From Ignavibacteriales bacterium (GTDB lineage: Bacteria > Bacteroidota > Ignavibacteria > Ignavibacteriales > Ignavibacteriaceae), in assembly GCA_016182615.1 (NCBI GenBank), contig JACPGF010000304.1, positions 1 to 32,456 on the forward strand: a DNA stretch of 32,456 nucleotides. The letters are read 5' to 3'. Position numbers and translations under genes: made by a program. The notes beneath the pieces are model-generated. The model did not search any database and was not told the DNA's origin. It saw nothing but the letters and a program-made list of their open reading frames with translations. Positions 69 through 28,701 of this stretch are shown here, piece after piece (the stretch's first letter is position 1; each line of letters begins with the position of its first letter).

Positions 69-1568
69 TTACTCCGTCGGCCCGGTATATTTCTTACCGT
101 CTGTTGAGATATAACTAAAATATTTCTCAGGGTCTTTGATGAATTTTTTATCGCAGCCCTTGCAGCAGAATCCGATAACCTTTCCTTTATACAATAACAA
201 TGGGCCTTCGTCAGCAACTTCATCACCAAGCACCGGACAGAAAGAATTAAAAACACCAAATTTCTTAAATACAGCGTTATCCTTCGTTATATATTCAGCT
301 GTAGCCGTGGTCTGTGCCACTTGTGGAGCTACGCTGGTACTTGCATCGCTTTTGTGCTCTCCATGTCCGCCCGATTTAAGCCTGCTCTCCGAATCGATGA
401 GATAGTTTCCGTTCAGCACTATTTCTTCACCCGCTGCCAGGCCCGCGGTTACCTGATACATGCTGCCAAACTTTGCACCCACTCGTATATCACGCGGTTC
501 AAATGTGGCCGAATCTCGTTTAACCCAGACAACATTGCGCTTACCGGTAAAAATTATCGCATCGGCATTTATTAGGATTCCGGTTCCCAGATTAACCGAG
601 AGGCTGCTCTCGCCGTACATCCGTGCACGCAATTTACCTGAATTGTTCGGCACGTCAATCCGTACTTTAACAGTGCGTGACTCACTTTCAACAACCGGAG
701 AAATAAATGAGATTTTACCGGTAAACGTTTCTCCCGGCAAAGCTGGGAATGTTACCTGCACAGGCATTTGCGGTTTGAGATACGTTACATCGGCTTCGAA
801 TATGTCGGCAACACTCCACAAATGTGAAATATCGGCCAGTTCATATAGTTCAGTTCCTTCGCTGATATAGCCGCCTTCTACGATGTTCTTTTTTATTACC
901 ACTCCCGAGTATGGAGCCAAATACTTGAACGTGTATGCTGCCTCGCCCGTTTTCTCAACATCGGTTATGTATTGTTCCGGCACGCCATACAACTCCAGCC
1001 GTTTACTGATTGAGTTAAGCAGTTTCTTCGCTTCCGCGCCGGGATTTTTATCGGAGGCACTTTTTGCAACAAGATATTCCGAAGCAGTCCTGTACACATC
1101 CGGGCTGTAGGCAGTAAATAGTACATCGCCTTTGCGGACTACCACACCAGTTTGCGCAACCGATAGCTGCTCTATTCGTCCGCCGAATTTTGCTGATACA
1201 ATCTTCCTGTTCTGTTCGGGAATTTCAAGAGTGCTGTAAGCTTTTATCTCTTTAACAAGCGGGCTTACTGTAACCGCTTCTGTTTTAACACCGGCGAGCA
1301 ACGCACGCTCACCGCTAAGGTTTACTGCACCATCCAGTGATTTAACATCAGCAGATTGCAGAACTAAGTCCATGTGGCAGATGGGGCAAACACCCTGCTT
1401 ATCGGATGTTACTTGCGGGTGCATGGGGCAATAGTACATTGTGCTATGAGCGATTTGCTCTTTGGGATTTTCTTTTTTTCCGGTACATCCGTTAAATACT
1501 ATTCCAATTACTATTGTAAAAAACAAGATGGGCATCAATATTTTTAGGTTAAGATTATTTGTTTTCAT
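69..1568 (-). CDS. CusB-like efflux RND transporter periplasmic adaptor with N-terminal heavy-metal-binding motif and C-terminal YHS/TRASH-like domain
   Basis: ORF 499 aa; lipoprotein-like N-terminus (VFNGC); 'YYCPMHPQVTSDKQGVCPICHMDL' heavy-metal binding domain; membrane-fusion-protein core; C-terminal 'FCPVLGDEV...GKVIGFCCKGCDKKFIKDPEKY'. Adjacent to CusC- and CusA-like genes. Confidence 0.9.
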   Translation of the reverse strand: MKTNNLNLKILMPILFFTIVIGIVFNGCTGKKENPKEQIAHSTMYYCPMHPQVTSDKQGVCPICHMDLVLQSADVKSLDGAVNLSGERALLAGVKTEAVTVSPLVKEIKAYSTLEIPEQNRKIVSAKFGGRIEQLSVAQTGVVVRKGDVLFTAYSPDVYRTASEYLVAKSASDKNPGAEAKKLLNSISKRLELYGVPEQYITDVEKTGEAAYTFKYLAPYSGVVIKKNIVEGGYISEGTELYELADISHLWSVADIFEADVTYLKPQMPVQVTFPALPGETFTGKISFISPVVESESRTVKVRIDVPNNSGKLRARMYGESSLSVNLGTGILINADAIIFTGKRNVVWVKRDSATFEPRDIRVGAKFGSMYQVTAGLAAGEEIVLNGNYLIDSESRLKSGGHGEHKSDASTSVAPQVAQTTATAEYITKDNAVFKKFGVFNSFCPVLGDEVADEGPLLLYKGKVIGFCCKGCDKKFIKDPEKYFSYISTDGKKYTGPTE

Positions 1569-1570
1569 TG

Positions 1571-2869
1571 CTATTTCCTGTCAAATTCAGTTATTGTTTC
1601 ACTTGCAGTAATCATGCGGATTTCAGCAGCGTTCATGTGCATATCCGTAACTGCCATGTAATAGTTCATTTCTTCCATCGTGCGCATTTTAAGGTACTCG
1701 TAATACTGCGGCATACTTAAGCTGCCCGCGGCAAATGCCGATGTAGCAGCCTCTTCCGCTTGATGCAGTAATGGGATAGTGACCGTCTTTAATCCATGTG
1801 CTTTTTCTTTGTTTGCACGGTAAGCGCCAAGAAGTTTTTGTAATGTTGTGTTCATAACACGCTCCATGTCCAAACGCTCAAACTGGAATTGTTTTGCTTC
1901 CGCCAGCAGCGCTTCGGATTTCTTTTCGATACCACCTTTAGACCAGGGCATAAAGGGTAATGTTACCGAGGCCATTAAACTGTACATGTATTCCGTCTTC
2001 GGCATTCCTGTCAGCATCGCCATTGATTGCCCCGTTGTAACTATCATGCCTTGCGGCATGCGCATAAACATTGCTTGCACCATCAGGTCGGGAATCAGTT
2101 CACGGTTGTTTGCATCATGCTCGGCAAGTTTCATGTTCTCCATCGCCTGCATCTTCAGCAACTCGGGGTTTACTTGCGGGAACTCTTGAATACTATTTTG
2201 AACAGGTATCGCATCTTCACCTTCGTGTACCACAACTGTTGCAAATGAAATATCTCCACTATAACCTGTCGCGCTTTTTAACGCGAGTACCGCGCCATCG
2301 TATTCATGTTCAAGTGCCTGAAGGGCTTGCCGCGAAGAGGATAGCAGTCCTTCAGCCATATAAATATCAGCCAACAAGCCGCCGGATGAGTACCGTGAGC
2401 GGAGCGACTCCAGACTGCGCTCCATTATTTGCAGCAGCTCTTTCTGCACTTGCATTTTCTTTGCAATACCCCATGCTGCATAATACTGCATAGTTACAGA
2501 TGCGTTTAACTTTCTCAGTTCCGCCTTGTATTCATAGAGTACCGCGTGAACACCCTTCTTTTCAGCCGCTGCCATTGCCTGTAGTTTGCCGCCAACCGGA
2601 AACATTTGCGATATGGCTATTGAGTTGGAGATTGATTTATCAACAATATTAATTTCATTTACCGGAATCTGGGAAAATTCAACCGATATGGTTGGTGGAG
2701 GCAGATATTCCATTCCCGAGGCCCGGTGAAGCATTGCATCACGCTTGTGCAGCAATGATTGCAGCCGCTGACTGTTTTGTCCGGCAACTGTTAATAATGA
2801 ATCAAGTGATTGTGCCTGTATAGTGCAGGCTAGTGCAAGCACATGCAGAATATAATATTTAAGCTTCAT
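1571..2869 (-). CDS. TolC/CusC-family outer membrane efflux protein
   Basis: ORF 432 aa with signal peptide, coiled-coil outer membrane efflux protein character; lies between the adaptor and RND pump genes; overlaps the pump ORF by 11 nt. Confidence 0.85.
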   Translation of the reverse strand: MKLKYYILHVLALACTIQAQSLDSLLTVAGQNSQRLQSLLHKRDAMLHRASGMEYLPPPTISVEFSQIPVNEINIVDKSISNSIAISQMFPVGGKLQAMAAAEKKGVHAVLYEYKAELRKLNASVTMQYYAAWGIAKKMQVQKELLQIMERSLESLRSRYSSGGLLADIYMAEGLLSSSRQALQALEHEYDGAVLALKSATGYSGDISFATVVVHEGEDAIPVQNSIQEFPQVNPELLKMQAMENMKLAEHDANNRELIPDLMVQAMFMRMPQGMIVTTGQSMAMLTGMPKTEYMYSLMASVTLPFMPWSKGGIEKKSEALLAEAKQFQFERLDMERVMNTTLQKLLGAYRANKEKAHGLKTVTIPLLHQAEEAATSAFAAGSLSMPQYYEYLKMRTMEEMNYYMAVTDMHMNAAEIRMITASETITEFDRK

Positions 2870-5800
2870 CGCTTTCCTCCTTCATCCATGCAGCCATCTT
2901 GGAAATGTGCAGCTGCCCCTTTTTCAGGGCGTGTTCTTTCATCATCACAAACAGTACAGGGGTTACAACAAGCACATGTACCGCGCTTGTCAGTAATCCT
3001 CCGACCATTGGTGCGGTGAGCGGTTTCATCACATCAGCACCAACACCCGTTGACCACATCACGGGCAGTAAACCAAGCATACTGGTAAACACGGTCATCA
3101 GTTTAGGCCTTAATCGCAGCACGGAGCCTTCAACCGCAGCTTCATAAATGTCAGTTGAATTAATTGCTCCCCTCCTGCCAGCCTGTACATCCCGCAGCCG
3201 CTTATCAAGCGCCTCGTGCAGATAAACAACCATAACCACGCCTGTTTCCACCGCTACGCCATACAAAGCAATAAACCCCACCCAGACTGCAACAGAAAAG
3301 TTGTAGCCCAATGCATAGATGGCATACACCCCGCCAATCAGTGCAAACGGAACGGATAACATCACCACGAGAGATTCCATGTAATCTTTCAGTGTAAAAT
3401 ACAGCAGGACAAAAATGATGATAAACACGATTGGCAAAATTATCATAATGCGGTTCTGTGCGCGTATTTTGCTTTCATACTGCCCGCTCCAACCAATCGT
3501 GTAACCCGTCGGCAAATGAAGTTGTGATTCAATTACCTTCATCGCATCCTCCATTACCGAGCCCATGTCCCTGCCTCGAGCATTCATGTAAATCACCGAG
3601 CGCAGCATGCCATTCTCGCTGCTTAACATGGAAGGCCCCTGATTGACATTTATATCGGCAAAGTAACTCAATGGCACATACCTCAAGTTTCCATCCTCCG
3701 TTGGTGCATCAAGCAATGATGTACCGCTGCCGGAAGATACTGCGCCGCCAGTTGAGCTGACCGCGGCAGGGGCACCCATAGCCATTCCACCACCTAATGG
3801 CATCCCGCCATTTGCTGGTTGAATGCCCGCACTTTGCACGCTTGTTGCTGCCCCCGTTTTGTAAATGGGGACAATCAGATTCTTCAACTCATTTACACCC
3901 TCCCTGAAATCCCGCGCATACCGCATCCGTATTGGGAAACGCATCCGACCTTCAAGCACAGAACCGATGTTCTGCCCGCCGATTGCAGTCTCAATAATAT
4001 CCTGCACATCTTTTACCGAAACCCCATAGCGGGCGGCATTTTGTTTATTCAGGATAATATCAAGATAATAGCCGCTCTGCTCGCGGTCCGCAACAACATC
4101 TGCCGCCCCGTCAACTTTTTTCAGCAGGGCTTCTGCTTTCAGTGCATAGTATTCAAGCGTGTCGGAGTTAGGGCCGAAAATCTTTAAGCCGAGTTCCGTA
4201 CGCACACCTGTAGCAAGCATGTTTATCCGGTTGATAATCGGCTGTGTCCAGCCATTCCTTACACCGGGTATTTGCAGGCGCATATCAAGCTCCTGTATAA
4301 TATCCTTTTTGGTTATACCCTTGCGCCATTGTTCTTTTGGTTTAAGCAAGATGATTGTCTCTATCATGCTTAAGGGGGCGTTGTCAGTGGCTGTTTCCGC
4401 TCTGCCTGCTTTTCCAAGCACCGCTTCCACTTCCGGCACCGAGGCTATAATTTTATCCTGCTGTGCAAGTATTTTGTTTATCTCGGTTATTGATACATTC
4501 GGCAATGTTACAGGCATGAACAGCAGCGAGCCCTCGTCCAAGGGCGGCATAAACTCCGAGCCGGTATGCATAACCATGGGCACGGTTATCAGCAAGGCAA
4601 GGACATTAATCACAATTGTAGTTTTCCGGTACTTCAGCACCCAGCGAATAACAGGCTCATATATACGATTAAAGAGCCGGGTGATAAAATTTTTGTTTTC
4701 CGGTTTAAAATTGCCGCGCATCAGCATGGTCATAAGCACTGGTATTAATGTTATAACAACAATGGCACTGCCAAGCATCATAAACGTTTTAGTGAAGGCA
4801 AGAGGCTTAAACAACTTACCTTCCTGCCCGGTTAATAAAAACACCGGCAGGAAAGAGACCAGAATTATCAATTCGGAAAAGAATATTGCCCGGCCAACCT
4901 GCTTGGCTGAGTTGACGGATATTGATTTGAATTCTTCATTAGTCAGCTTACCCTTTTTTGCCTGTGCCCGTGCAAGGCTCCGGTAGGCATTTTCAACGAG
5001 CACAATCGAGGAATCGACCACCACCCCGACAGCGAGTATAATGCCGCCCAGACTCATGATGTTCGAGGTAATCCCGAAGGCATACATGAGGATAAAGGCA
5101 AGCAGAACGGAAACCGGCAGCTCTATCAGTATCCTGACGATACTCCTCCAATGCAATAAAAAAAGAGCAACAACAAGCGCTACGACCACAGCAGCTTCCA
5201 TCAAAGCCCGCTCAAGCGTACCAATGGCTTGTGTAATAAGGGTGCTTCTATCGTAGAATGGTTTTATACTAACACCTGCAGGCAGGCCTGCCGATATTTG
5301 CTCTATCTGCTTTTTTACCCGTTCTATCACCTGGCGGGCATTCTCCCCGGTTCGCATTACCACAATTCCGCCAACAACTTCACCGTTGCCGTTTTTTTCG
5401 AGTGTGCCCCTGCGAATATCGCCGCCTAACTGAACTTTGGCAATTTGCTTTATATACACGGGAATTCCACCCGCCGCATTTTTCACCAGAATATTCTCGA
5501 TGTCCTCTGTTTTGCTAATATAGCCCTGCCCCCGTACAAAATATTCCGCGTCAGACATTTCAATAAGTTTACCGCCGACTTCGTTATTGTTTTTTTGCAG
5601 TGCGGCGGCCACCTCATTAAGGTGTACACCGTATGCCCGCAATTGCAGCGGGTCAACATCAACCTGATACTGTTTTACTTTACCGCCAATTCCCGCAACT
5701 TCGGCAACCCCCTCTACTGAGGCAAGCTTGTAGCGGATAAACCAGTCCTGCAAACTCCTCAGTTCAGCAGGTGTATATCCATTGCCCTCTACCGTGTACC

Positions 5801-6221
5801 AGAAGACATGCCCCACTCCAGTCCCATCGGGGCCGAGAGAGGGAGTGACCCCGGCGGGTAATTGTACCTGTATCGTGTTGAGTTTTTCGGCTACCCTTGT
5901 GCGGGCAAAGTAGGTTTCGGTGTTATCATCAAAAATAACAAACACGAAAGACATCCCGAACATTGAAGACGCGCGCACAGCTTTCACGTGCGGCAATCCC
6001 TGCAATGCGGTAACCAGTGGGAACGTTACCTGGTCTTCTATTACTTTTGGCGAGCGGCCCATCCATTCGGTATAGACTATCACCTGATTTTCCGAAAGAT
6101 CCGGAATGGCATCAACCGGTAGATTGATAACACTGTAAATGCCAATACCGCTCAGCAATAGATACGCGAGTATTACCAGTACGCGGTTTGACACGCACCA
6201 GTCAATAATTTTTTCTATCAT
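2859..6221 (-). CDS. CusA/CzcA-family heavy metal efflux RND transporter
   Basis: ORF 1120 aa; 'MIEKIIDWCVSNRVLVILAYLLLSGIGIYSVINLPVDAIPDLSENQVIVYTEWMGRSP' is characteristic of CusA/CzcA; multiple TM segments. Confidence 0.95.
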   Translation of the reverse strand: MIEKIIDWCVSNRVLVILAYLLLSGIGIYSVINLPVDAIPDLSENQVIVYTEWMGRSPKVIEDQVTFPLVTALQGLPHVKAVRASSMFGMSFVFVIFDDNTETYFARTRVAEKLNTIQVQLPAGVTPSLGPDGTGVGHVFWYTVEGNGYTPAELRSLQDWFIRYKLASVEGVAEVAGIGGKVKQYQVDVDPLQLRAYGVHLNEVAAALQKNNNEVGGKLIEMSDAEYFVRGQGYISKTEDIENILVKNAAGGIPVYIKQIAKVQLGGDIRRGTLEKNGNGEVVGGIVVMRTGENARQVIERVKKQIEQISAGLPAGVSIKPFYDRSTLITQAIGTLERALMEAAVVVALVVALFLLHWRSIVRILIELPVSVLLAFILMYAFGITSNIMSLGGIILAVGVVVDSSIVLVENAYRSLARAQAKKGKLTNEEFKSISVNSAKQVGRAIFFSELIILVSFLPVFLLTGQEGKLFKPLAFTKTFMMLGSAIVVITLIPVLMTMLMRGNFKPENKNFITRLFNRIYEPVIRWVLKYRKTTIVINVLALLITVPMVMHTGSEFMPPLDEGSLLFMPVTLPNVSITEINKILAQQDKIIASVPEVEAVLGKAGRAETATDNAPLSMIETIILLKPKEQWRKGITKKDIIQELDMRLQIPGVRNGWTQPIINRINMLATGVRTELGLKIFGPNSDTLEYYALKAEALLKKVDGAADVVADREQSGYYLDIILNKQNAARYGVSVKDVQDIIETAIGGQNIGSVLEGRMRFPIRMRYARDFREGVNELKNLIVPIYKTGAATSVQSAGIQPANGGMPLGGGMAMGAPAAVSSTGGAVSSGSGTSLLDAPTEDGNLRYVPLSYFADINVNQGPSMLSSENGMLRSVIYMNARGRDMGSVMEDAMKVIESQLHLPTGYTIGWSGQYESKIRAQNRIMIILPIVFIIIFVLLYFTLKDYMESLVVMLSVPFALIGGVYAIYALGYNFSVAVWVGFIALYGVAVETGVVMVVYLHEALDKRLRDVQAGRRGAINSTDIYEAAVEGSVLRLRPKLMTVFTSMLGLLPVMWSTGVGADVMKPLTAPMVGGLLTSAVHVLVVTPVLFVMMKEHALKKGQLHISKMAAWMKEESDEA

Positions 6222-6278
6222 AGTATTCTCTTATCAATAATAGTTACCGGCAGCAAGTATGCTTAGCCGGATAGTTTA

Positions 6279-6293
6279 CCTGTTTTAAACAGG
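6279..6293. promoter_or_regulatory. Perfect inverted repeat CCTGTTT-T-AAACAGG, candidate operator upstream of the efflux operon
   Basis: 15-nt palindrome about 57 nt upstream of the CusA-like start codon (minus strand). Confidence 0.4.
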
Positions 6294-6411
6294 ATGTATT
6301 ATTTCGGAATCAAAAGGAGGTGTATGCTGCCGTATCAGTTGTCAAACGGGGCGAGACGTGCCCATACTGTTTTCGTGAGCGATTACTCCTTGCACGAGGC
6401 AAAGCGTATTC

Positions 6412-6846
6412 TCAAATAAGCAGAGAGGAGAAAAGAATAGACAGGAGCTGCTTTTGTATTCCGGGCGGGGACTCCTGAATATGCACAGCACATAAACTGC
6501 CAAGAGTTGTAAAATTTTGACTGCTAATTTCCTGCACTAGTAAAGCACTTAACTGTTGTACAGGTTTTTTTGTGGAGATGATGCGCTCTGCATCAATTTT
6601 AAGAGGTGCTGCGATTACGTGTTCTTTGCAGCAGTTATTATCCGCTGTAAAAGCAACCAGGAAATCCTCCAATTCATCTTCACAGCACGAAGATTTTTCA
6701 ACCGGTTTACTTTGCTCTTCACACATAACGCATGATTGATTTGAAAATGCCCCGGCCATGCCGCAATAATGCAGCGCGTACGGTATGCCGGTAAAGTTAA
6801 CAATTACCAGCAAAAGTAAAATCCGGCCGAAGGTGTTTCTAATCAT
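6412..6846 (-). CDS. Small Cys-rich exported protein (HYC_CC-type), possibly metal-associated
   Basis: ORF 144 aa, N-terminal hydrophobic segment, 'ALHYCGMAG...SCVMCEEQ...SSCCEDE...NCCKEH'. Same strand as and upstream of the efflux operon. Confidence 0.6.
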   Translation of the reverse strand: MIRNTFGRILLLLVIVNFTGIPYALHYCGMAGAFSNQSCVMCEEQSKPVEKSSCCEDELEDFLVAFTADNNCCKEHVIAAPLKIDAERIISTKKPVQQLSALLVQEISSQNFTTLGSLCAVHIQESPPGIQKQLLSILFSSLLI

Positions 6847-18074: not shown

Positions 18075-19280
18075 TTACTCTTTTTCAATTGCAAGGACGG
18101 AAATATCGTCTTCAAATTTTTCATCACCCTTCCAGGCAATAAGCATTTGCTTAAGGGCTTCGATTACCTCGCGCAGTGGTTTAGCGCTATTTACTGATAA
18201 AAACGCGTTGAGCCTGTCAAAACCAAACATTTCGCCTTCAGAATTTACCGCATCAATTACTCCGTCGGAGTAGAGAAAAATGCGGGATCCGGGTGAAAGT
18301 ATAACCATTTCATCATCAAACTCGGTTTCCTTCAATATACCGACAGGCATTCCCTTCGTATTAACGATATGGCCATCACTCCCCGGACGGGTAAGAATCG
18401 GCATCGGATGCCCGGCCCGTGAAAGAAATATTTTTCCTGTCCCCGGTTCAATAGAACCATAGCAAACGGTAAAAAACTGCATCGCATCATTTTCTTTGTA
18501 AAACATGGTGTTTAACCGATCCATCATGTACGATGGACGCTTTGGATCCATCGTATCCGTAAGGATTTCAACGATGTTAAACTGTACAGGCCGCTGCATA
18601 AACCCTAAAAATTTGCTTAACGTGTAAGCAAGCATAGCACTTGCTACTCCATGTCCGGCAACATCAATCTGGTAAAAATCTATGGTGCCAAAATCGGTCT
18701 TACCGAAGTTAAAGATATCACCCGCGACACCACTGGTTGGCATAAATAACCAATCGAAAGCATACCCTTCAATTGATTTCCGTTTATCCGGCAGCAATTC
18801 ACGCTGCAAATAGGCAGCCATATCAATATCATTTTTAACAATCGCGTACGCCCGGTTCAAATCCTGGTTGGCCTTGCGCAAGCGGGCATTATTCTCTTCC
18901 AGCCGTTTTTCCAGTTCAAGAATTCTGTTTCCTGTAGCAATCCTGCACTTCAATTCTGCCGGATGAAAGGGTTTTTTCAGAAAATCATCTGCTCCGGCCT
19001 CAAGGGCTTTCACCACTTCACCGGCTTCGGTATGCGCGGTAATAATTATAATGTAAACATACCGGTCCAAAATTTCGGATCGTATTTTACTGCAAAGTTC
19101 CGGCCCGGTCATTTTGGGCATAACCCAATCGGTTATAAGAAAATTGATCTGGCTTTTACATAAAATATCATACGCTTCACTGCCATCAGTTGCGGCAATG
19201 ACGGTGTGCCCTAAATGTTTAAGGTACGATTCGAGGATAAGCCGGTTTTGGGCTAAATCTTCTGCTATGAGTATATTCAC
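18075..19280 (-). CDS. Response regulator with SpoIIE/RsbU-type PP2C serine phosphatase output
   Basis: REC domain 'MNILIAEDLAQNRLILESYLKHLGHTV...LITDWVMPKMTGPELC...KKPFHPAELKCRI' plus 'GDIFNFGKTDFGTIDFYQIDVAGHGVASAMLAYTLS' and 'LYSDGVIDAVN'. Confidence 0.92.
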   Translation of the reverse strand: MNILIAEDLAQNRLILESYLKHLGHTVIAATDGSEAYDILCKSQINFLITDWVMPKMTGPELCSKIRSEILDRYVYIIIITAHTEAGEVVKALEAGADDFLKKPFHPAELKCRIATGNRILELEKRLEENNARLRKANQDLNRAYAIVKNDIDMAAYLQRELLPDKRKSIEGYAFDWLFMPTSGVAGDIFNFGKTDFGTIDFYQIDVAGHGVASAMLAYTLSKFLGFMQRPVQFNIVEILTDTMDPKRPSYMMDRLNTMFYKENDAMQFFTVCYGSIEPGTGKIFLSRAGHPMPILTRPGSDGHIVNTKGMPVGILKETEFDDEMVILSPGSRIFLYSDGVIDAVNSEGEMFGFDRLNAFLSVNSAKPLREVIEALKQMLIAWKGDEKFEDDISVLAIEKE

Positions 19281-19488: not shown

Positions 19489-19851
19489 GTGTATAAAAAT
19501 ATGAAAAATGTATTCTTGTATTTGTTGGTTGTTGTTACAATCATTGCCCTTTACGGAGTTGCATATGCCGGAATGCCGGAAGAACCGGCCGGAAAAAAGT
19601 TATTTATCGATTCAAAATGTAATATGTGCCATGGTATACAATCCGCGGCAATTGAAACAAAATCAAAGAAAAAAGACATCCCGGATCTTTCCGGAGTTGG
19701 ATCACACAGAAAAGCCGATTTTTTGAAAAAATATCTTCTTAAACAAGAAAAAGTAAATGATAAAAATCATCCGACCAATTTTAAAGGCAGTGATGCTGAC
19801 CTTACAAAACTGGTTGAATGGCTAGGTACTTTAAAAGAAGCAAAAAAATAA
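19489..19851 (+). CDS. Small monoheme cytochrome c
   Basis: Signal peptide, 'GKKLFIDSKCNMCHGI' single CXXCH; likely start ATG 19501. Confidence 0.85.
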   Translation: MYKNMKNVFLYLLVVVTIIALYGVAYAGMPEEPAGKKLFIDSKCNMCHGIQSAAIETKSKKKDIPDLSGVGSHRKADFLKKYLLKQEKVNDKNHPTNFKGSDADLTKLVEWLGTLKEAKK

Positions 19852-19881
19852 TTTTTTATCAAAGGACTTCCCTTATTCACT

Positions 19882-22032
19882 ATGGCAGCTCTCAGTCAAA
19901 ATTCCGCCCTCCCAGATAAATGGTTAGGAACATTATTCCTCTTCCTATTTTTAGTTATAGCGCCTGCAATAAATGCTCAAACAAAAGAAGATTGCATGAG
20001 CTGCCACAGTGACCAAACTTTGACAATGGAAAAAAAGGGGAAGCAAGTTCCCCTTTTTGTTAACGAAAAATCACTTGATAATTCACCGCATAAAAAATTA
20101 AACTGCATTGCATGCCACACGGGATTCGATTTCGAAAATGTGCCCCATAAAGAAATTATTACCCCTGTCAACTGCATGTCCTGTCATAAAAATGCACCTA
20201 TGAAACACCTTTTCCATCCTCAGATGCTTCGTGCAGCCGGTGAAGGCAAAGATGTTAACTGTAAAGGTTGTCATGGAACTCACGATGTAAAGCGGATACA
20301 ACACAATGCAACTGCAGGTTCAGGTATCAGATGCGAAAAATGCCATCAGGAAAACACGCAAAAATATCAGCTATCGGCTCACGCGGCCGCCCGTGCAAAC
20401 AACATTATCGATGCACCGGAATGCCTAACCTGCCATAAAGAACAAATTTCTTTTAAAAGCTTCAAACAAGATACCATTAAGGCAAAAATCGCTCAGGAAA
20501 AACTTTGCCTTTCGTGCCATTTGAACGATCCTGAAGTACGTTCCCGTTTCGCTTTTACCAAATCGTTTATTAACTCATACGAGAACAGCGTTCATGGAAT
20601 GGCACTACGTAAAGGCAACGCTAAAGCCCCGGGCTGCGCGGATTGTCATGATGCTCATCAGGTTTTAAGCAAACAGGACAAAAATTCCAGTGTTTTTAAG
20701 GCAAATATCCCTAAAACCTGCTCAAAGTGCCACGAAAAGGTTGCCCACGATTATGCGACAAGCGTGCATGGTTTGGCAGTTGCAAAAGGCAACTCTGATG
20801 CACCGGTTTGTACAGACTGCCACGGCGAACATAATATTCTTAAACATACAGACCCCAACTCCCCCGTTGCTTTTAAGAATGTTTCAGAACAGGTTTGCGC
20901 AAATTGCCATAACTCGATTCAATTGAATCAAAAATACGGGCTGGCCAGTGAGCGTACGAAGACATTTAATGATTCATATCATGGCCTTGCTTTGCGGGGC
21001 GGTTCGTATGCAGTTGCCAATTGTGCTAGCTGCCACGGTGTTCACGACATTAAAAAATCAAGTGATTCAACTTCAAAAGTTCACAAATCTAATCTTGTAA
21101 AAACCTGCGGCAAGTGCCATCCGGGTGCTAATGAAAACTTTACTGTCGGCTCTATCCATGTAAAATATTCCGAAAAAGAAGAACCGATATTATTCTGGAT
21201 AATTTCCATATACATTTTCCTCATCGGCGGAACAATTGGTGCAATGATGCTGCACAACCTGCTCGATTTTGTTAAAAAGGCAAAAATTAAAAAGATGAAA
21301 CAGCGTGGATTGCTGCCGCATCATCAACACGGGCACCGGTTATATCTCCGTATGAGTAAAAGCGAGAGAATACAGCACTTTTTGTTATTAACCAGTTTCT
21401 TTACGCTTGTACTCACTGGTTTTATGCTCCGTTTCCCGGAGGCGTGGTGGGTGCGCGGTATCCGCGATATTAGCGGCCATGCCTTTGAACTGCGCAGTAT
21501 TCTTCACCGTATTGCTGCCGTTGTTATGGTTGCAGCAAGTTTATATCACGTTTATTATTTAGCGTTCACCCAGCGCGGGAGGCAGTTATTTTTTGACCTT
21601 TTACCACGTTTACAGGATGCAAAAGACGCTATTGGTGTTCTGAAATACAACCTTTCTTTATCAACCGAAAAACCATTACTTGACAGGTTTAGTTATATTG
21701 AAAAAGCAGAATACTGGGCACTTATTTGGGGAACGATTGTAATGACTTTAACGGGTTTTATCCTGTGGTTTGATAATACATTTATAGGATTATTCACAAA
21801 ACTGGGATGGGATATTGCAAGGACAATCCATTATTACGAGGCTTGGCTTGCTTTCCTTTCAATTGTTGTATGGCATTTTTATTTTGTTATGTTTAATCCG
21901 GATATATACCCGATGAGCCTTGCATGGTTCAAGGGCACCATCACCGAGGAGGAAATGGCTGAGGAGCACCCCTTGGAGTTAGAAAGAATTAAAAAACAGT
22001 CCGCTGAAAACGAAGACGAAACAAAAGAATAA
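19882..22032 (+). CDS. Multiheme cytochrome c (13 CXXCH) fused to a membrane cytochrome b-type domain
   Basis: 13 CXXCH motifs counted in the translation; TM anchor 'ILFWIISIYIFLIGGTIGAMML', then a His-containing multi-TM region 'RIQHFLLLTSFFTLVLTGFML...LHRIAAVVMVAASLYHVYYL...WHFYFV'. Confidence 0.9.
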   Translation: MAALSQNSALPDKWLGTLFLFLFLVIAPAINAQTKEDCMSCHSDQTLTMEKKGKQVPLFVNEKSLDNSPHKKLNCIACHTGFDFENVPHKEIITPVNCMSCHKNAPMKHLFHPQMLRAAGEGKDVNCKGCHGTHDVKRIQHNATAGSGIRCEKCHQENTQKYQLSAHAAARANNIIDAPECLTCHKEQISFKSFKQDTIKAKIAQEKLCLSCHLNDPEVRSRFAFTKSFINSYENSVHGMALRKGNAKAPGCADCHDAHQVLSKQDKNSSVFKANIPKTCSKCHEKVAHDYATSVHGLAVAKGNSDAPVCTDCHGEHNILKHTDPNSPVAFKNVSEQVCANCHNSIQLNQKYGLASERTKTFNDSYHGLALRGGSYAVANCASCHGVHDIKKSSDSTSKVHKSNLVKTCGKCHPGANENFTVGSIHVKYSEKEEPILFWIISIYIFLIGGTIGAMMLHNLLDFVKKAKIKKMKQRGLLPHHQHGHRLYLRMSKSERIQHFLLLTSFFTLVLTGFMLRFPEAWWVRGIRDISGHAFELRSILHRIAAVVMVAASLYHVYYLAFTQRGRQLFFDLLPRLQDAKDAIGVLKYNLSLSTEKPLLDRFSYIEKAEYWALIWGTIVMTLTGFILWFDNTFIGLFTKLGWDIARTIHYYEAWLAFLSIVVWHFYFVMFNPDIYPMSLAWFKGTITEEEMAEEHPLELERIKKQSAENEDETKE

Positions 22033-22051
22033 TTAAAAGTTGGTTTATGTT

Positions 22052-22094
22052 GACCGGTATGCGTATTTTCCGAATGAAGCATACCGGTCTTTTT
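22052..22094 (+). terminator. Intrinsic terminator GACCGGTATGC...GCATACCGGTC-TTTTT
   Basis: 11-bp perfect stem followed by TTTTT, immediately after the 13-heme gene. Confidence 0.85.
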
Positions 22095-22200
22095 GTATTT
22101 AGTTTAACTGCATTTCATTCAATTAGTAATAATTTTCCCGGCAGGGAAACGGCAAAATAAACTAACAAGTTCTACATTTTTAGAGTAACTTTCTGAAGGC

Positions 22201-24204
22201 TTGATAATGAGAAAGCTTGTCTTTTTTACACTCCTGATTTTCAGGTTTTTCGCTTATGCACAAGATAATAGCGACTGCCTGTCGTGTCATGATGATAAAA
22301 CAGCAAAAGGAACCCGTAACGGTAAAACAATTTCCATATACATGGATGAAAAGAAGCTCAAAGGTTCAGTGCATGCAAAAAACAAATGTATTGATTGCCA
22401 CGTTGACCTGAAGGATGCCGAATTTCCGCATGATGAGAATCCGAAACGAGCACAATGTGCAACCTGTCACGATGAGGCGTTTAAACTTTATTCTGCCGGA
22501 TTACACGGACGGGCAAAGGCAAAGGGCGACCCCTTGGCTCCCGGCTGCGGTGACTGTCATGGAAACCATGAGATACTTAAGAAAAAAGACCCACGCTCCT
22601 TAACATTTCCACTGAAAGTGCCTTACCTTTGCGGCCGCTGCCATAAAGAAGGAACACCCGTGCAGTTACAGCGCAACATTCCGCAGGATCATATCTTCGA
22701 GAACTATTCCGAAAGTATTCACGGCGAAGGATTGTTAAAAAAAGGGTTGACCGTTTCGGCAACATGCGCATCCTGCCATACGGCGCACCTTGTTTTGCCA
22801 CACACCGATTCCCGTTCGAGCATTGCCCGTAAAAATATCGCGGCAACCTGCACGCAATGCCACATGGGCATAGAGAATGTTCACCGGAAAATTATTCAAG
22901 GCCAGCTCTGGGAAAAAGAAGCTCACGTCCTGCCCGCTTGTGTTGACTGCCATCAACCGCATAAGGCACGAAAAGTATTTTATGATCAGGGAATGGCTGA
23001 TGCCGACTGTATGAAATGCCATGCCAATACGGCACTAATATCATCTAAAGACGGTCACTCTTTATATGTCGATTTTGCCCAGGTTAAAGATTCACGCCAT
23101 GCCAAGATTGCGTGCAGCCAATGCCACTCGGCAGTTAACCCTTCAAAGCTTAGGCCATGTGAAACGATTACCAAGAATGTTGACTGCGCCTCGTGCCATG
23201 CCGCCGTTGGTGAAGAATACAAACTAAGCACGCATGGTAAACTTTTTGCTAAAAATGATGAAAATGCCCCAATTTGTTCTGAATGTCACGGCACACATCA
23301 TGTTCTTGGTAAACGTGACCCGAGATCACCGATTTTTGCCACCAGTATTCCAAAGTTATGCGCGCAGTGCCACCGCCCGGGACAGGCAGCAGCCAAAAGG
23401 ATTAAAAACAAAAAAGATGATATAATATCTGAATACAAAGAAAGTATTCATGGTAAGGGACTGTTAAAAAGCGGTTTAACGGTAACGGCAAAATGTACCG
23501 ACTGCCACACGGCTCACCGTGAGCTGCCAAGTTCGGATCCGCTTTCAAGTGTTAATCCTAAAAACATGGCGGCAACCTGTGGTATCTGCCACAGCGGTAT
23601 CGAAGAAAAATTCTTGAAAAGTGTGCACTCGCCAGATGTGACAAAGACGGATAAAAAACTACCCGGCTGCAACGATTGCCACTCCTCGCACACGATTTCA
23701 CGCACCGATGGTGATAATTTCAAACTCGGGGTTATGTCCTCGTGTGGTAATTGCCATGAAGAAATTGCTAAAACATATTTTGATACATATCATGGCAAGG
23801 TATCGCAGCTTGGTTCTTCAAAAACTGCAAAATGCTACGATTGCCATGGAGCGCATGATATTCTGCCGCCGTCAAATCCGGATTCAAGATTAAGCAGGCA
23901 GAACGTTATAAAAACATGTCAACATTGCCACCCCGGTGCAACAAAAATGTTTGCCGGATATTTAACCCATGCAACACACCATGACCCGCAAAAATACCCC
24001 TGGCTCTTTTGGGTATTCTGGGGAATGACAGGCTTGCTCGTGGGAACATTTATCATTGCCGGTGCCCACACGCTCCTGTGGCTGCCCCGCTCTTTCCAAT
24101 GGAAGAAAAAACTGAAAGAAATTGAAGAGAGGGAAGCCCGCGAAGAATTAGAAGCAGAGCAATCCGAATCACAGGAAAAGAATGAAAACGGAAAGGAGAA
24201 ATAA
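22201..24204 (+). CDS. Membrane-anchored multiheme cytochrome c (19 CXXCH)
   Basis: 19 CXXCH motifs counted; N-terminal signal sequence; C-terminal TM anchor 'YPWLFWVFWGMTGLLVGTFIIAG'; internal duplication. Confidence 0.9.
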   Translation: MIMRKLVFFTLLIFRFFAYAQDNSDCLSCHDDKTAKGTRNGKTISIYMDEKKLKGSVHAKNKCIDCHVDLKDAEFPHDENPKRAQCATCHDEAFKLYSAGLHGRAKAKGDPLAPGCGDCHGNHEILKKKDPRSLTFPLKVPYLCGRCHKEGTPVQLQRNIPQDHIFENYSESIHGEGLLKKGLTVSATCASCHTAHLVLPHTDSRSSIARKNIAATCTQCHMGIENVHRKIIQGQLWEKEAHVLPACVDCHQPHKARKVFYDQGMADADCMKCHANTALISSKDGHSLYVDFAQVKDSRHAKIACSQCHSAVNPSKLRPCETITKNVDCASCHAAVGEEYKLSTHGKLFAKNDENAPICSECHGTHHVLGKRDPRSPIFATSIPKLCAQCHRPGQAAAKRIKNKKDDIISEYKESIHGKGLLKSGLTVTAKCTDCHTAHRELPSSDPLSSVNPKNMAATCGICHSGIEEKFLKSVHSPDVTKTDKKLPGCNDCHSSHTISRTDGDNFKLGVMSSCGNCHEEIAKTYFDTYHGKVSQLGSSKTAKCYDCHGAHDILPPSNPDSRLSRQNVIKTCQHCHPGATKMFAGYLTHATHHDPQKYPWLFWVFWGMTGLLVGTFIIAGAHTLLWLPRSFQWKKKLKEIEEREAREELEAEQSESQEKNENGKEK

Positions 24205-24205
24205 T

Positions 24206-25045
24206 ATGGCCGGAAAACCTAAATTACAGTTTCAGCGTTTCACCCGGATTCAACGGTTATTACATATTCTCATGATTGTTAGTTTTATCAGTCTTGCTTT
24301 AACCGGTATGACTTTAAAATTTGCTTACACCAGTTGGGCGTATTTTCTTTCCCATCTTTTAGGGGGATATCAAACCGCCGGTTACATTCACCGCTTCGCG
24401 GCAGTAATAATGATAAGTGTTTTCACGATTCATATTATTGACGTTGTACGGCTGAAACGGCGCATGTTTCAATCTTGGAAAGCACTGATACTCGGACCTG
24501 ACTCAATGCTTTTTAACAGGAAAGACTGGGATGATTTAAAGGCTTCGTTAAAGTGGTTTGTCGGGAAAGGTGAGCGCCCGGAATACGGAAGATGGACGTA
24601 CTGGGAAAAATTTGACTACTTCGCTGTCTTCTGGGGTATCTTTGTTATCGGTTCTACCGGTGCAACATTATGGTTCCCCGAGTTTTTCACCCGCTTTATT
24701 CCCGGCTGGGTTTTAAACGTTGCTACCATTATCCATAGTGATGAAGCCCTGCTGGCAACCGGTTTTATATTTACCGTGCACTTCTTTAACACCCATCTCC
24801 GTCCGGAAAAATTTCCGATGGACATTGTAATTTTTACCGGGCGGATTCCTTTAGAAGAATTTAAACTTGACCGCCCTGCCGAGTATAAAGCACTTGTTGA
24901 AAGCGGGCAGCTTGAAAAGTTTTTAGTTGAACCATATCAACCGATTGTTATCCGTACCATTAAAATATTCGGCTGGACCGCCCTTTCACTTGGGCTGTTT
25001 ATTGTTGTCTTTATTATATACGCGATGATTTTCGCTTACCGGTAA
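24206..25045 (+). CDS. Cytochrome b/b6-type membrane protein (formate dehydrogenase gamma-like)
   Basis: AAGGAG RBS before ATG 24206; 'RIQRLLHILMIVSFISLALTGMTLKF...IHRFAAVIMISVFTIHIIDVV...FTVHFFNTHLRPEKFPMD'. The ORF track start at 24182 overlaps the upstream gene. Confidence 0.85.
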   Translation: MAGKPKLQFQRFTRIQRLLHILMIVSFISLALTGMTLKFAYTSWAYFLSHLLGGYQTAGYIHRFAAVIMISVFTIHIIDVVRLKRRMFQSWKALILGPDSMLFNRKDWDDLKASLKWFVGKGERPEYGRWTYWEKFDYFAVFWGIFVIGSTGATLWFPEFFTRFIPGWVLNVATIIHSDEALLATGFIFTVHFFNTHLRPEKFPMDIVIFTGRIPLEEFKLDRPAEYKALVESGQLEKFLVEPYQPIVIRTIKIFGWTALSLGLFIVVFIIYAMIFAYR

Positions 25046-25061
25046 CAGAAAAGGAATTATT

Positions 25062-26555
25062 ATGAAAAGAAAGTTTCCCGCAGTTTTCTACAACCCCATT
25101 TCTCTGGCAGGTGCTTCTATAGCCACAGTTTGCGCCGGATTAATTGCTTTTTTAGTTGTTATCGAGTTTTTTGCCCGTGAACACAAACCGTACATGGGAA
25201 TTGTTGCTTTTATCATTCTCCCTGCAATAATGATTTGCGGGCTTATCCTCATCGCGTATGGCGGGTACAGGGATTTCAGAAGAAAAAAGGTCGGAATCGT
25301 GCGCGATATGCACTTCCCCGTTATCGATTTGAACGACCCGGTAAAGAGAAGGGCGGTTACCGTTTTCACGGTCGGGACAATCGTTTTACTTGTTGCCTCG
25401 GCATTCGGCAGTTTTAAAGCATACGAATATACAGACTCCGATGAATTTTGCGGAACAGTCTGCCACTCGGTTATGGAGCCCGAATATACCGCGTACCAAG
25501 GCAGCCCGCATGCTAAAGTGGGGTGCGTCAAGTGTCATATCGGCTCGGGGGCTGATTGGTTTGTCCGAGCTAAAATCTCAGGCTCATACCAGTTATATTC
25601 AGTTGCCTTTAACAAATTTTCACGGCCGATACCAACCCCAGTTGAAAGTTTACGCCCCGCGCAGGGCACTTGCGAGCAATGCCATTCACCCAGCCATTTT
25701 TACGGCGAAAAGAAGTTGACCATTGAGCATTTCCTTTCGGACGAGAAGAACTCGAAATCGGATATGACAATTCTTCTGAAAATTGGCGGTCACGATATCC
25801 GGGGGATTGCTTCCGGTATTCACTGGCATGTCAATCCCGAAACCGAAGTTTGGTATTTCCCTGCGGATACACAACGGCAGCATATACCATATATAAAAAC
25901 CATTTCGAAAAAATCCGGTAAAGAATCTGTCTATCTCGAAAAGGGTTTCCCTTTAGACAAAGTTGACTTCTCTAAACTGCGTAAAATGGACTGTATCGAC
26001 TGCCATAACCGCCCCTCGCACATCTATCATGAACCTGATAAAGCCATTAACAGGCTTATGCAGTACGGTGAAATTGATTCCACTTTACCATACATTAAGA
26101 GTTTGGCCGTTCAGGTACTCGAGGAGAATTACTACTCTAAAAAAGAGGCACTTGAGAAAATCAATCTTAAGGTAAACGATTTCTACAGTAACAATTACGC
26201 AAGCCTCACATCATCTAAAGGCACACAGATTGCCTCTGCCATCAAAGAGATTCAGGCAGTCTATCAGAGAAATTATTTCCCTGAAATGAAAGTAAGCTGG
26301 AGAAAATATCCCAACAACATTGGCCACACCTATTACGATGGCTGTTTCAGGTGTCACGACAATAAACATCAGGAAAAAGCGGGTAAAATTATCTCTGCCG
26401 ATTGTAATCAATGCCATCTAATTATCGAGCAGTCCTCACCGGAAACCGGAAAACAGGTAAACCTGTCCGGTTTAACCTATGTTCATCCCGGTGAATTAAA
26501 CAATAGCATCAAGAACCAAAAGTGCAGCGACTGCCACGGAGTTAAAAAGTACTAA
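25062..26555 (+). CDS. NapC/NirT-like multiheme cytochrome c (6 CXXCH + 1 CX3CH)
   Basis: N-terminal TM segments; CGTVCH, CVKCH, CEQCH, CIDCH, CFRCH, CNQCH, CSDCH. Confidence 0.85.
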   Translation: MKRKFPAVFYNPISLAGASIATVCAGLIAFLVVIEFFAREHKPYMGIVAFIILPAIMICGLILIAYGGYRDFRRKKVGIVRDMHFPVIDLNDPVKRRAVTVFTVGTIVLLVASAFGSFKAYEYTDSDEFCGTVCHSVMEPEYTAYQGSPHAKVGCVKCHIGSGADWFVRAKISGSYQLYSVAFNKFSRPIPTPVESLRPAQGTCEQCHSPSHFYGEKKLTIEHFLSDEKNSKSDMTILLKIGGHDIRGIASGIHWHVNPETEVWYFPADTQRQHIPYIKTISKKSGKESVYLEKGFPLDKVDFSKLRKMDCIDCHNRPSHIYHEPDKAINRLMQYGEIDSTLPYIKSLAVQVLEENYYSKKEALEKINLKVNDFYSNNYASLTSSKGTQIASAIKEIQAVYQRNYFPEMKVSWRKYPNNIGHTYYDGCFRCHDNKHQEKAGKIISADCNQCHLIIEQSSPETGKQVNLSGLTYVHPGELNNSIKNQKCSDCHGVKKY

Positions 26556-26728: not shown

Positions 26729-28701
26729 ATGTACATGAAATATTTTAAAACCACTTTTTTGGCTCCTTCCCTCGCGCTATTTGCTGCCAATAGCAAATAC
26801 CTCTTTCTGCTCGCATTTATGTCACTGCTCTCCACTGTACAAGCACAGAACTGGAAAACGGTCGATTCTGTTTTTGCTCCATGGGGCGTAAAAGCGCAGA
26901 GTTTTTCGGATCCGTTCTTTTGCGATATGGACAAGGATGGCGACGCTGATTTGTTTATCGGAAGCACCGGCAACCGTGTCGAATATTTCGAAAACATTTC
27001 AAATGCAACCCGGCCGATGTTTAGAAAAGACACAGCAATGCTTTCCTCTATTTACGCCAACGGGTATCAGTTTACTAATGCAGACTATCCGTTCTTATGT
27101 GATCTTGATGCCGATAACGATTTTGATCTTCTTATCGGCGGTTATAACGGTGTTTTGTATTATCTGAATACCGGTGATTCATTGCACCCTGTCTGGGAAC
27201 AGGCAGACACATTATTTGCAAATGTCAATACGCAAATAGGCACGGATCCCAAACCGGTGCTTGTTGACATTGATGATGACGGCGACCTTGACTTGTTTGT
27301 TGGTATTGGCTAGTCTTTGATGGGCGGACGAACATCAGGTATAACTATTGCATTCCGAAATCAGGGTAACAATAGAAGCGCTTATTTTGTAAGGGACAAC
27401 ACTCTTACCTCAGGCATTGGCGATGCAGGTTATAACGCGTATCCTTCTTTTGCCGACCTTGACAAGGATGGGGATTATGATATGATTATGGGACGAGACG
27501 TGGCAACGTTTATTCACTATAAGAATGCAGGCACCCGCACAGCACCCATTTGGCAGATGGCACCGATTCAGGACTTTTGTATTACTACACCAACACAGGT
27601 ACGCCTACGGCACCTGCATACACCTATGATGCAACAAAATTCAGAATAATAAAATCCGATAATAGCGGCGCAACCGTATCGGTAGCGGATTATGATAAAG
27701 ACGGCGACTTCGATTTCATCAGCGGCAATTGGCTTGGCACCATACAGTATTACAAAAACGAAGGAACAAAGCTGCTGCCTTTGTTTAAGCAAACAACCAC
27801 CGTGTTTTCCGGGTTAGATTTTGGCTCGTACAGTGCACCCGTTTTTGTCGATCTTGATAACGACGGCGATCAGGATATTGTCGGCGGCGATATGAACGGC
27901 TTGGTACAGGCCTACATTAACACGAATAATACAACCTTCGCGAAAAACACTACCATGTTTGCAGGTATTAATGTTGCCGGGTTTAGCATTCCCGCGTTTG
28001 GCGATATTGACGGAGATGGTGATAAAGACCTGCTTGTTTGCGCGGAAGATGCCCCGAATATAAAGTTTTACAAGAACACAGGCGGAAATGTTTTCGTGCA
28101 GAACGATTCGTTAATGACCGGGGTGACTTTTTATGATAGAAGCAACCCAACGTTTGCAGATATTGACAATGACGGTGATTTGGATCTCATCCTTGGCCGC
28201 CGGTTTGGCACCATACAGTTCTACGAAAACCTGGGTAATAAACTTGAACCCAAGTGGAAACAGAATGACACTTTAATGGCTGACATTGAAGTAAAGCAGA
28301 ATGCATCCTGCGGTTTTGCCGATTTTGACGGAGACACCAAACCCGACGCCGTTACCGGTGAATATGACGGAACATTCACATTTTTCAAAAACCTGTTTGC
28401 AGTGGTTGGCGTAACCCCCGCTAACGGGCTTTCGGCAAAAGAGTTTGCTTTGCTGCAAAACTATCCTAACCCGTTTAATCCCGCCACGGTTATTTCATAC
28501 ACCGTGCAGGAATACGGCTATGTCTCCCTGAAAGTATATGATATTACCGGTAATGAAATCGTGCAGGTTTTCAACGGCTATCAGCAGCCGGGCAGTTACA
28601 CAGCTGCTTTTGATGGCACCGGACTGGCAAGCGGTGTCTATTTTTACAAGTTACAGGCAGGCAATAAAACCATTACAAAAAAAATGCTTCTGCTTAAATA
28701 A
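26729..28701 (+). pseudogene. VCBS/FG-GAP repeat T9SS-secreted protein, interrupted by an in-frame TAG and a downstream frameshift
   Basis: ORFs 26729-27313 and 27317-27649 are in the same frame, separated only by TAG at 27311-27313; homology-like repeat continues in another frame in 27550-28701, ending in a T9SS domain 'NYPNPFNPATVISYTVQEYGYVSLKVYDITG...KKMLLLK'. Confidence 0.75.

Follow-up and report, generated by a model that had tools for sequence, protein, structure and literature searches.

Five consecutive genes of an Ignavibacteriales bacterium, rich in heme motifs, probably encode parallel quinol entry points for extracellular electron transfer

Introduction

What purpose is served by five consecutive genes that together encode 39 CXXCH heme-binding motifs and one CX3CH motif, and to what partner do their products pass electrons? 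The question is raised by a 32,456-nt stretch of DNA from an Ignavibacteriales bacterium (assembly GCA_016182615.1, contig JACPGF010000304.1), hereafter referred to as the window, in which such a cluster, genes A to E, lies on the plus strand. An original prediction made from the letters alone had counted these motifs and proposed a quinol-linked extracytoplasmic electron conduit. Our analysis suggests that the five genes probably encode the inner-membrane part of a chain for extracellular electron transfer (EET), the part that oxidizes quinol, with B, C-D and E as parallel entry points for menaquinol.

In the chain that we propose, E would oxidize menaquinol at a site of the NapC type that faces the periplasm, whereas in B and C-D the electrons of menaquinol would pass through two membrane-crossing b hemes, as in FdnI, the periplasmic arm of C-D being formed by 19 hemes. 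The three would be separate entry points that feed periplasmic carriers and then an outer-membrane conduit, which would carry the electrons out of the cell for the respiration of minerals or electrodes.

Results

Heme motifs of the window are concentrated in five genes

The window contains 42 matches to the DNA pattern for CXXCH, whereas shuffled sequences predict 2.5 (sd 1.7, maximum 8), and 39 of the 42 matches lie within 19618-26537, on the plus strand throughout. The number of motifs per gene is 1 in A, 13 in B, 19 in C, none in D, and six in E, which has one CX3CH in addition. Count and coordinates agree with those first put forward, as do the seven motifs attributed to E, which are six CX2CH and the CX3CH (FCGTVCH, residues 130-135), and the presence of one fused and one free cytochrome b module, i.e. 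PF01292 domains in B and D, respectively. Translation of A, C, and D likely begins at the ATG codons 19501, 22207, and 24206, respectively, each a few codons in from the start of the earlier open reading frame (ORF), and a profile match to C also begins at 22207. All features of the cluster are listed in Table 1.

Table 1. Features of the cluster, in window positions
Feature	Position	Strand	Description
Gene A	19501..19851	+	Monoheme class-I cytochrome c with signal/anchor helix (PF00034, E 4.7e-8)
Gene B	19882..22032	+	CbcL-like: 13 c hemes, then membrane domain with putative FdnI-like diheme cytochrome b
FdnI-like cytochrome b module of B	21349..21981	+	PF01292, invariant His, Foldseek
Terminator-like hairpin	22052..22094	+	11-bp perfect stem GACCGGTATGC/GCATACCGGTC, 16-nt loop, then TTTTT
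Gene C	22207..24204	+	19-heme cytochrome with C-terminal membrane helix; predicted heme half of split CbcL-like protein
Internal repeat of C, copy 1	22366..23034	+	Residues 56-278, 8-heme unit
Internal repeat of C, copy 2	23092..23769	+	Residues 298-523
Gene D	24206..25045	+	Free FdnI-like cytochrome b; one ORF with C in some relatives
Gene E	25062..26555	+	Putative ImcH-like quinol dehydrogenase, 497 aa; three N-terminal transmembrane helices, CX3CH and six CX2CH

Gene E encodes a putative ImcH-like quinol dehydrogenase

E had been labeled NapC/NirT, and this label is partly borne out by similarity to PF03264 (residues 97-187), which is restricted to helix 3 and the first hemes. Judged by the features described for ImcH, the name ImcH-like suits E better than NapC/NirT alone. 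These features are three N-terminal helices, a CX3CH near the membrane, a set of CX2CH motifs, and limited similarity to NapC (PMC6295460). Indeed, hydropathy peaks at residues ∼20-38, 47-65, and 100-118 correspond to three N-terminal transmembrane helices, the CX3CH (residue 130) adjoins the membrane domain, and the six CX2CH fall within the five to nine of the ImcH definition. Residues C130, C134, H135, M138, and K171 are invariant (the first three, including H135, in a 24-row alignment). NrfH (2j7a) matches residues 103-229 of E, in which Met49 of NrfH, which we take to be the heme-1 methionine, is kept as M138, and Lys82, presumably the quinone-site lysine, is kept as K171, whereas Asp89 is replaced by Q177. 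E remains far under the NCBIfam equivalog cut-offs for NrfH (50.6 versus 134.2 bits) and TorC (21-23 versus 455-478). ImcH of Geobacter sulfurreducens, an inner-membrane heptaheme cytochrome, resembles E in length, in its three N-terminal helices, in its CX3CH and six CX2CH, and in its limited NapC similarity. The two differ in setting: CbcL-like genes share the cluster of E and are joined in relatives by a porin conduit. A 2018 survey found no mtrAB or mtoAB adjoining imcH (PMC6295460).

B and the C-D pair resemble fused and split forms of CbcL

By sequence, B shares with CbcL/MtoC/MtrH an N-terminal multiheme c domain followed by an FdnI/HydC-like membrane domain with conserved histidines, and we consider it CbcL-like. 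Its 13 c-heme motifs fall inside the range of 3-23 given for these proteins, whereas CbcL of Geobacter has 9 c hemes. PF01292 covers residues 490-673 of B (E 6.7e-14). AlphaFold2 models of B and C, built from alignments of 19 and 14 rows, are of low confidence (mean pLDDT 60-62, pTM ∼0.35); with Foldseek, the membrane part of this low-confidence B model matches 1kqf_C, FdnI of E. coli formate dehydrogenase N, with a TM-score of 0.71 by target, a probability of 1.00, and E 6e-3. A shorter B homologue, of 474 aa, is found directly upstream of E in genome G010 (L023 8828-10252), with the 13 hemes retained and the cytochrome b domain lost, and a comparable 481-aa frame, probably without cytochrome b, is present in genome G003 (contig C226).

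In D, PF01292 matches residues 19-200, although with E 7.9e-6 the match stays below the curated cut-off. A profile alignment of D and its relatives to 1kqf_C places H28, H70, H185, and H200, all invariant in 14 D sequences, at the positions of FdnI H18, H57, H155, and H169, which we take to be the b-heme ligands. The corresponding residues of B (H499, H542, H650, and H665) are invariant in 19 B sequences. Because C and D, once joined, are collinear with B (E 3e-78), with C providing the hemes and the first membrane helix and D the cytochrome b, the pair appears to be a split CbcL-like protein. A scan of named genomes with C, in which taxon names are those of the submitters' titles, gave 80 loci, the best of 569 confirmed, and C-D is a single ORF of about 920-1020 aa in 13 of them. 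The split or fused state changed at least three times on a tree of 82 C proteins.

C contains an eight-heme repeat, which scores z 19 against shuffles that keep the heme motifs fixed; BLASTP of C against itself did not detect this internal repeat. CbcBA of Geobacter consists of multiheme c and b-type proteins encoded by adjacent genes, and CbcA has seven hemes. C-D is likened to it by this organization, with the c hemes on one protein and the b-type part on another. It differs in that C, with 19 hemes and an eight-heme duplication, exceeds the seven of CbcA, in that C is CbcL-related, and in that some lineages have a fused C-D.

There are exactly 13 invariant non-motif His before the membrane domain of B for 13 c hemes (19 sequences), and C has 20 for 19 hemes (14-row alignment). 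Because these conserved distal His suffice, every c heme in B and C could be bis-His ligated, and because ligation on the far side would then be satisfied for all of them, both proteins are predicted to be wires rather than catalytic reductases. A terminal reductase of the NrfA or NapA type within C was dropped for the same reason. Searches with C gave no significant Foldseek match to its model (HAO at E 0.19) and only generic multiheme matches, such as NrfB and HAO, among Protein Data Bank sequences. Membership of the DmsE, HmcA, and GSU2203 families was also dropped, all being far under the NCBIfam cut-offs.

In A, H90 is invariant at the distal Met position and a conserved distal Met is absent (12-row alignment). 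The monoheme is thus predicted to be bis-His ligated and, because of this, may have a low potential. Divergent from A, on the minus strand, is a response regulator fused to a SpoIIE-type phosphatase (18075-19280); in G001, a genome of the same genus, a 48% identical homologue of it neighbors A on the upstream side (L022).

The cluster is conserved across phyla, with separable modules

Among close genomes, 37 of 41 carry E. In the family of the source organism, A, B, and E usually adjoin in that order, and C-D lies between B and E in seven genomes, including the source of the window; many family members have A-B-E without C-D, and A is missing from many relatives. In family f2, C-D is followed by a 16-heme CbcL-like gene and E is found elsewhere; in family f3, E is unlinked from CbcL. 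Upstream of C-D-CbcL in f2 (L056 349-5344) are genes for a 13-heme protein, a sensor kinase with CXXCH, and two response regulators.

The 80 C loci (58-83% identity) come from Ignavibacteriota, Bacteroidota, Chlorobiota, Acidobacteriota, Eisenbacteria, and Marinimicrobia. Of the 51 loci whose flanks are long enough, 47 have D next to C or fused with it, 42 have B nearby, and 37 have E nearby. Since gene order varies (B-C-D-E, E-C-D-B, C-D-B-E), co-location has been kept through rearrangement. Most C proteins of Acidobacteriota form one well-supported clade inside the C tree. Among genomes of the class, C occurs with E in 42 of 43. C-D is thus an accessory pair, split or fused, found in several phyla and nearly always with E. 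The gene set being kept across phyla, its members are not unrelated genes that happen to adjoin, and no well-characterized complex with an assigned substrate matches all five.

The lasting association of B, C, D, and E in different phyla and in altered orders, and the near absence of C without E, would also fit a multi-headed quinol oxidase in which all of them form a single obligate supercomplex in the membrane, with more than one quinone site. We consider this unlikely, as the modules do separate: A-B-E occurs without C-D, E lies apart from C-D-B in f2 and from CbcL in f3, and B is without its cytochrome b in G010 and probably in G003. Moreover, a terminator-like hairpin lies between B and C (Table 1). 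Its minimum free energy is -21.4 (z -4.7; 0 of 2000 mononucleotide shuffles), and G001 likewise has a hairpin after B. With its 16-nt loop it falls outside our terminator scan, whose loop limit is 8 nt. This hairpin could uncouple the expression of A-B from that of C-D-E. A scan for sigma-70 promoters, with 26 found versus 15 expected and every one at 9 of 12 matches, was uninformative.

A porin-cytochrome conduit is the probable partner

Downstream of the CbcL-like gene, families f2 and f3 have a row of genes for a tetraheme c554-like protein, a protein of 421-427 aa, a 14-heme cytochrome, and a lipoprotein with CxxxxCH. The 421-427 aa protein looks like a β-barrel porin; it has no match in Pfam or NCBIfam. 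The 14-heme protein and the lipoprotein match generic c7/CxxxxCH models only. Taking these predicted products together, the gene row has the layout of a porin-cytochrome conduit, complete in relatives. In the source genome, a porin end, the 14-heme gene, and the lipoprotein gene are found on contig C352. The latter is present there as two overlapping ORFs of 206 and 126 aa (L064 1609-2554), which suggests a frameshift or a sequencing error. Among 149 genomes of the class, E is found in 75, the 14-heme protein in 95, and both in 69 (Fisher p ∼1e-13). The 14-heme gene follows E on the same strand in 14 genomes, at a distance of 1.4-9.8 kb. One locus (L165) reads, on one strand, B-C-D-E-Rieske-cytochrome b-11-heme-4-heme-porin-14-heme-lipoprotein; in another (L166, probably of the same genome as L108) C-D is fused and a set encoding 8-heme, iron-sulfur (FeS), and NrfD proteins is added. 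The partner of the cluster is probably a porin-cytochrome conduit, located on C352 in the source genome. The original prediction saw no recognizable terminal reductase in the window and left the partner unnamed, a view that gives way to this probable conduit. The quinol-linked electron conduit that it proposed is supported, being compatible with every part tested.

Several points weigh against such an EET chain. The conduit of the source genome is on a separate contig, a short one whose end truncates the porin. The Fisher statistic ignores the relatedness of the genomes, and 26 of the 95 conduit-bearing genomes are without E and 6 of the 75 with E are without the 14-heme protein, so that the link between E and the conduit is not obligatory. 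The direction of electron flow is not readable from sequence, and the idea that B, C-D, and E share the work according to acceptor potential is transferred from Geobacter.

NapC-like proteins usually serve soluble periplasmic reductases and the window contains no conduit, hence the cluster could instead provide quinol dehydrogenases for reductases of nitrite, nitrate, arsenate, and the like. We give this only a small chance. Contig C392 of the source genome (L065 3478-5499) encodes a NapC/NrfH-type protein with four hemes and, after it, a 473-aa protein in which CXXCH occurs four times, an NrfHA-like pair, because of which nitrite reduction appears to have its own donor. In addition, no periplasmic reductase recurs by the cluster in the loci examined, whereas porin-cytochrome genes do.

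Contig C420 of the source genome (L067 6185-12637) carries Rieske, cytochrome b, and 11-heme genes, and also encodes a histidine kinase with a heme motif and a regulator of the NtrC type. This set is followed by a gene for a DUF2339 membrane protein (4542-6158). This contig bears on the proposal that the cluster stands in for complex III and supplies cytochrome c oxidases with electrons in aerobic respiration, with A as carrier. Although the genome has COX1-family oxidases and A is a class-I cytochrome c, this proposal is highly improbable: A is predicted to be bis-His ligated, suggesting a low potential, and is missing from many relatives, a Rieske/cytochrome b complex already exists on C420, and the recurrent neighbors are conduit genes, not oxidases.

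The longest loci suggest a more speculative extension of the EET reading, which we put forward tentatively and regard as rather doubtful. Here, the cluster would form the core of a widely shared island that places up to five quinol oxidoreductases of differing structure on one outer-membrane conduit as a switchable set, i.e. the ImcH-like protein, the CbcL-like protein, the split 19-heme pair, Rieske/cytochrome b with the 11-heme protein, and NrfD/FeS with the 8-heme protein. The duplicated 19-heme arm of C might then bridge much of the periplasm to the conduit directly.

Discussion

In Geobacter, ImcH is used for acceptors above about -0.1 V, CbcL for lower ones, and CbcBA near -0.2 V (PMC12307469, PMC9129911). 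By analogy, several entry points would let the cell match its energy yield to the potential of the acceptor, and B, C-D, and E are perhaps divided in this way. Such a division of labor fits the way in which the modules come apart from genome to genome, and it also fits the terminator-like hairpin between B and C.

Electrons might also flow inward, from extracellular donors such as Fe(II), cathodes, or partner cells to quinone. CbcL/MtoC homologues do occur in Fe(II) oxidizers (PMC6295460), and no sequence feature tells the two directions apart. ImcH homologues have been reported from Fe(III) reducers only (PMC6295460), which argues against inward flow and leaves it, in our estimate, improbable. 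We infer that the flow is outward, from menaquinol to the conduit.

The components belong to, or closely resemble, known EET families. The conduit, on C352 and in relatives, is likened by layout to the porin-cytochrome conduits of Geobacter (OmbB-OmaB-OmcB), both having a β-barrel-like protein and adjacent periplasmic and lipoprotein multiheme cytochromes. Those of Geobacter have 8- and 12-heme cytochromes, whereas a 14-heme protein, 5-9-heme partners, and the c554-like tetraheme protein are found here. Rhodoferax ferrireducens, with two cymA, mtrH, and mtrABC, likewise has several quinol oxidase genes beside an outer-membrane conduit; there, CymA and MtrH accompany the Mtr conduit, and ImcH, a split CbcL-like pair, Rieske, and NrfD are unmentioned (PMC6295460). 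An uncharacterized seven-gene EET cluster in the anode-enriched metagenome-assembled genome Bacteroidetes_1 encodes six multiheme cytochromes and a β-barrel, with best matches in Bacteroidetes/Ignavibacteriae, and is possibly the conduit part of the same island; it is not treated there as a quinol-oxidase island (PMC8258643). Conduits were already known in Ignavibacterium album and other Ignavibacteria (PMC4245776, PMC6137239, PMC7399161), and ImcH homologues in Melioribacter roseus and three Ignavibacteriae (PMC6295460). The ImcH and CbcL homologues of Desulfuromonas acetexigens, expressed on electrodes, have consecutive accession numbers (PMC12133095), and the pair may be adjacent in that species too.

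The conserved multi-entry island itself appears to be a new variant. Our search, mainly of open-access articles, found no description of the B-C-D-E set or of its joining with Rieske, NrfD, and conduit genes. Modules homologous or analogous to ImcH, CbcL, and CbcBA are gathered in one recurring cluster in Ignavibacteriota, Bacteroidota, Acidobacteriota, and others, and in some loci this quinol-oxidase cluster is in one run with an outer-membrane conduit. This links a large group of mostly uncultivated bacteria of sediment, peat, and groundwater to probable mineral or electrode respiration, offers compact marker genes, above all the one for the 19-heme C protein, and makes the idea of redox gears testable outside Geobacter.

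Other genes of the window

Downstream of E, on the plus strand (26729-28701), a gene whose product has FG-GAP repeats and a tail for type IX secretion is broken over three frames. Its homologue in G001 is a single ORF of 699 aa (L022 13122-15221), and the broken gene is either a pseudogene or an assembly error. On the minus strand, positions 69-6846 resemble, by sequence judgment only, a heavy-metal RND efflux operon encoding a membrane-fusion protein, a TolC-like protein, and a CusA-like pump.

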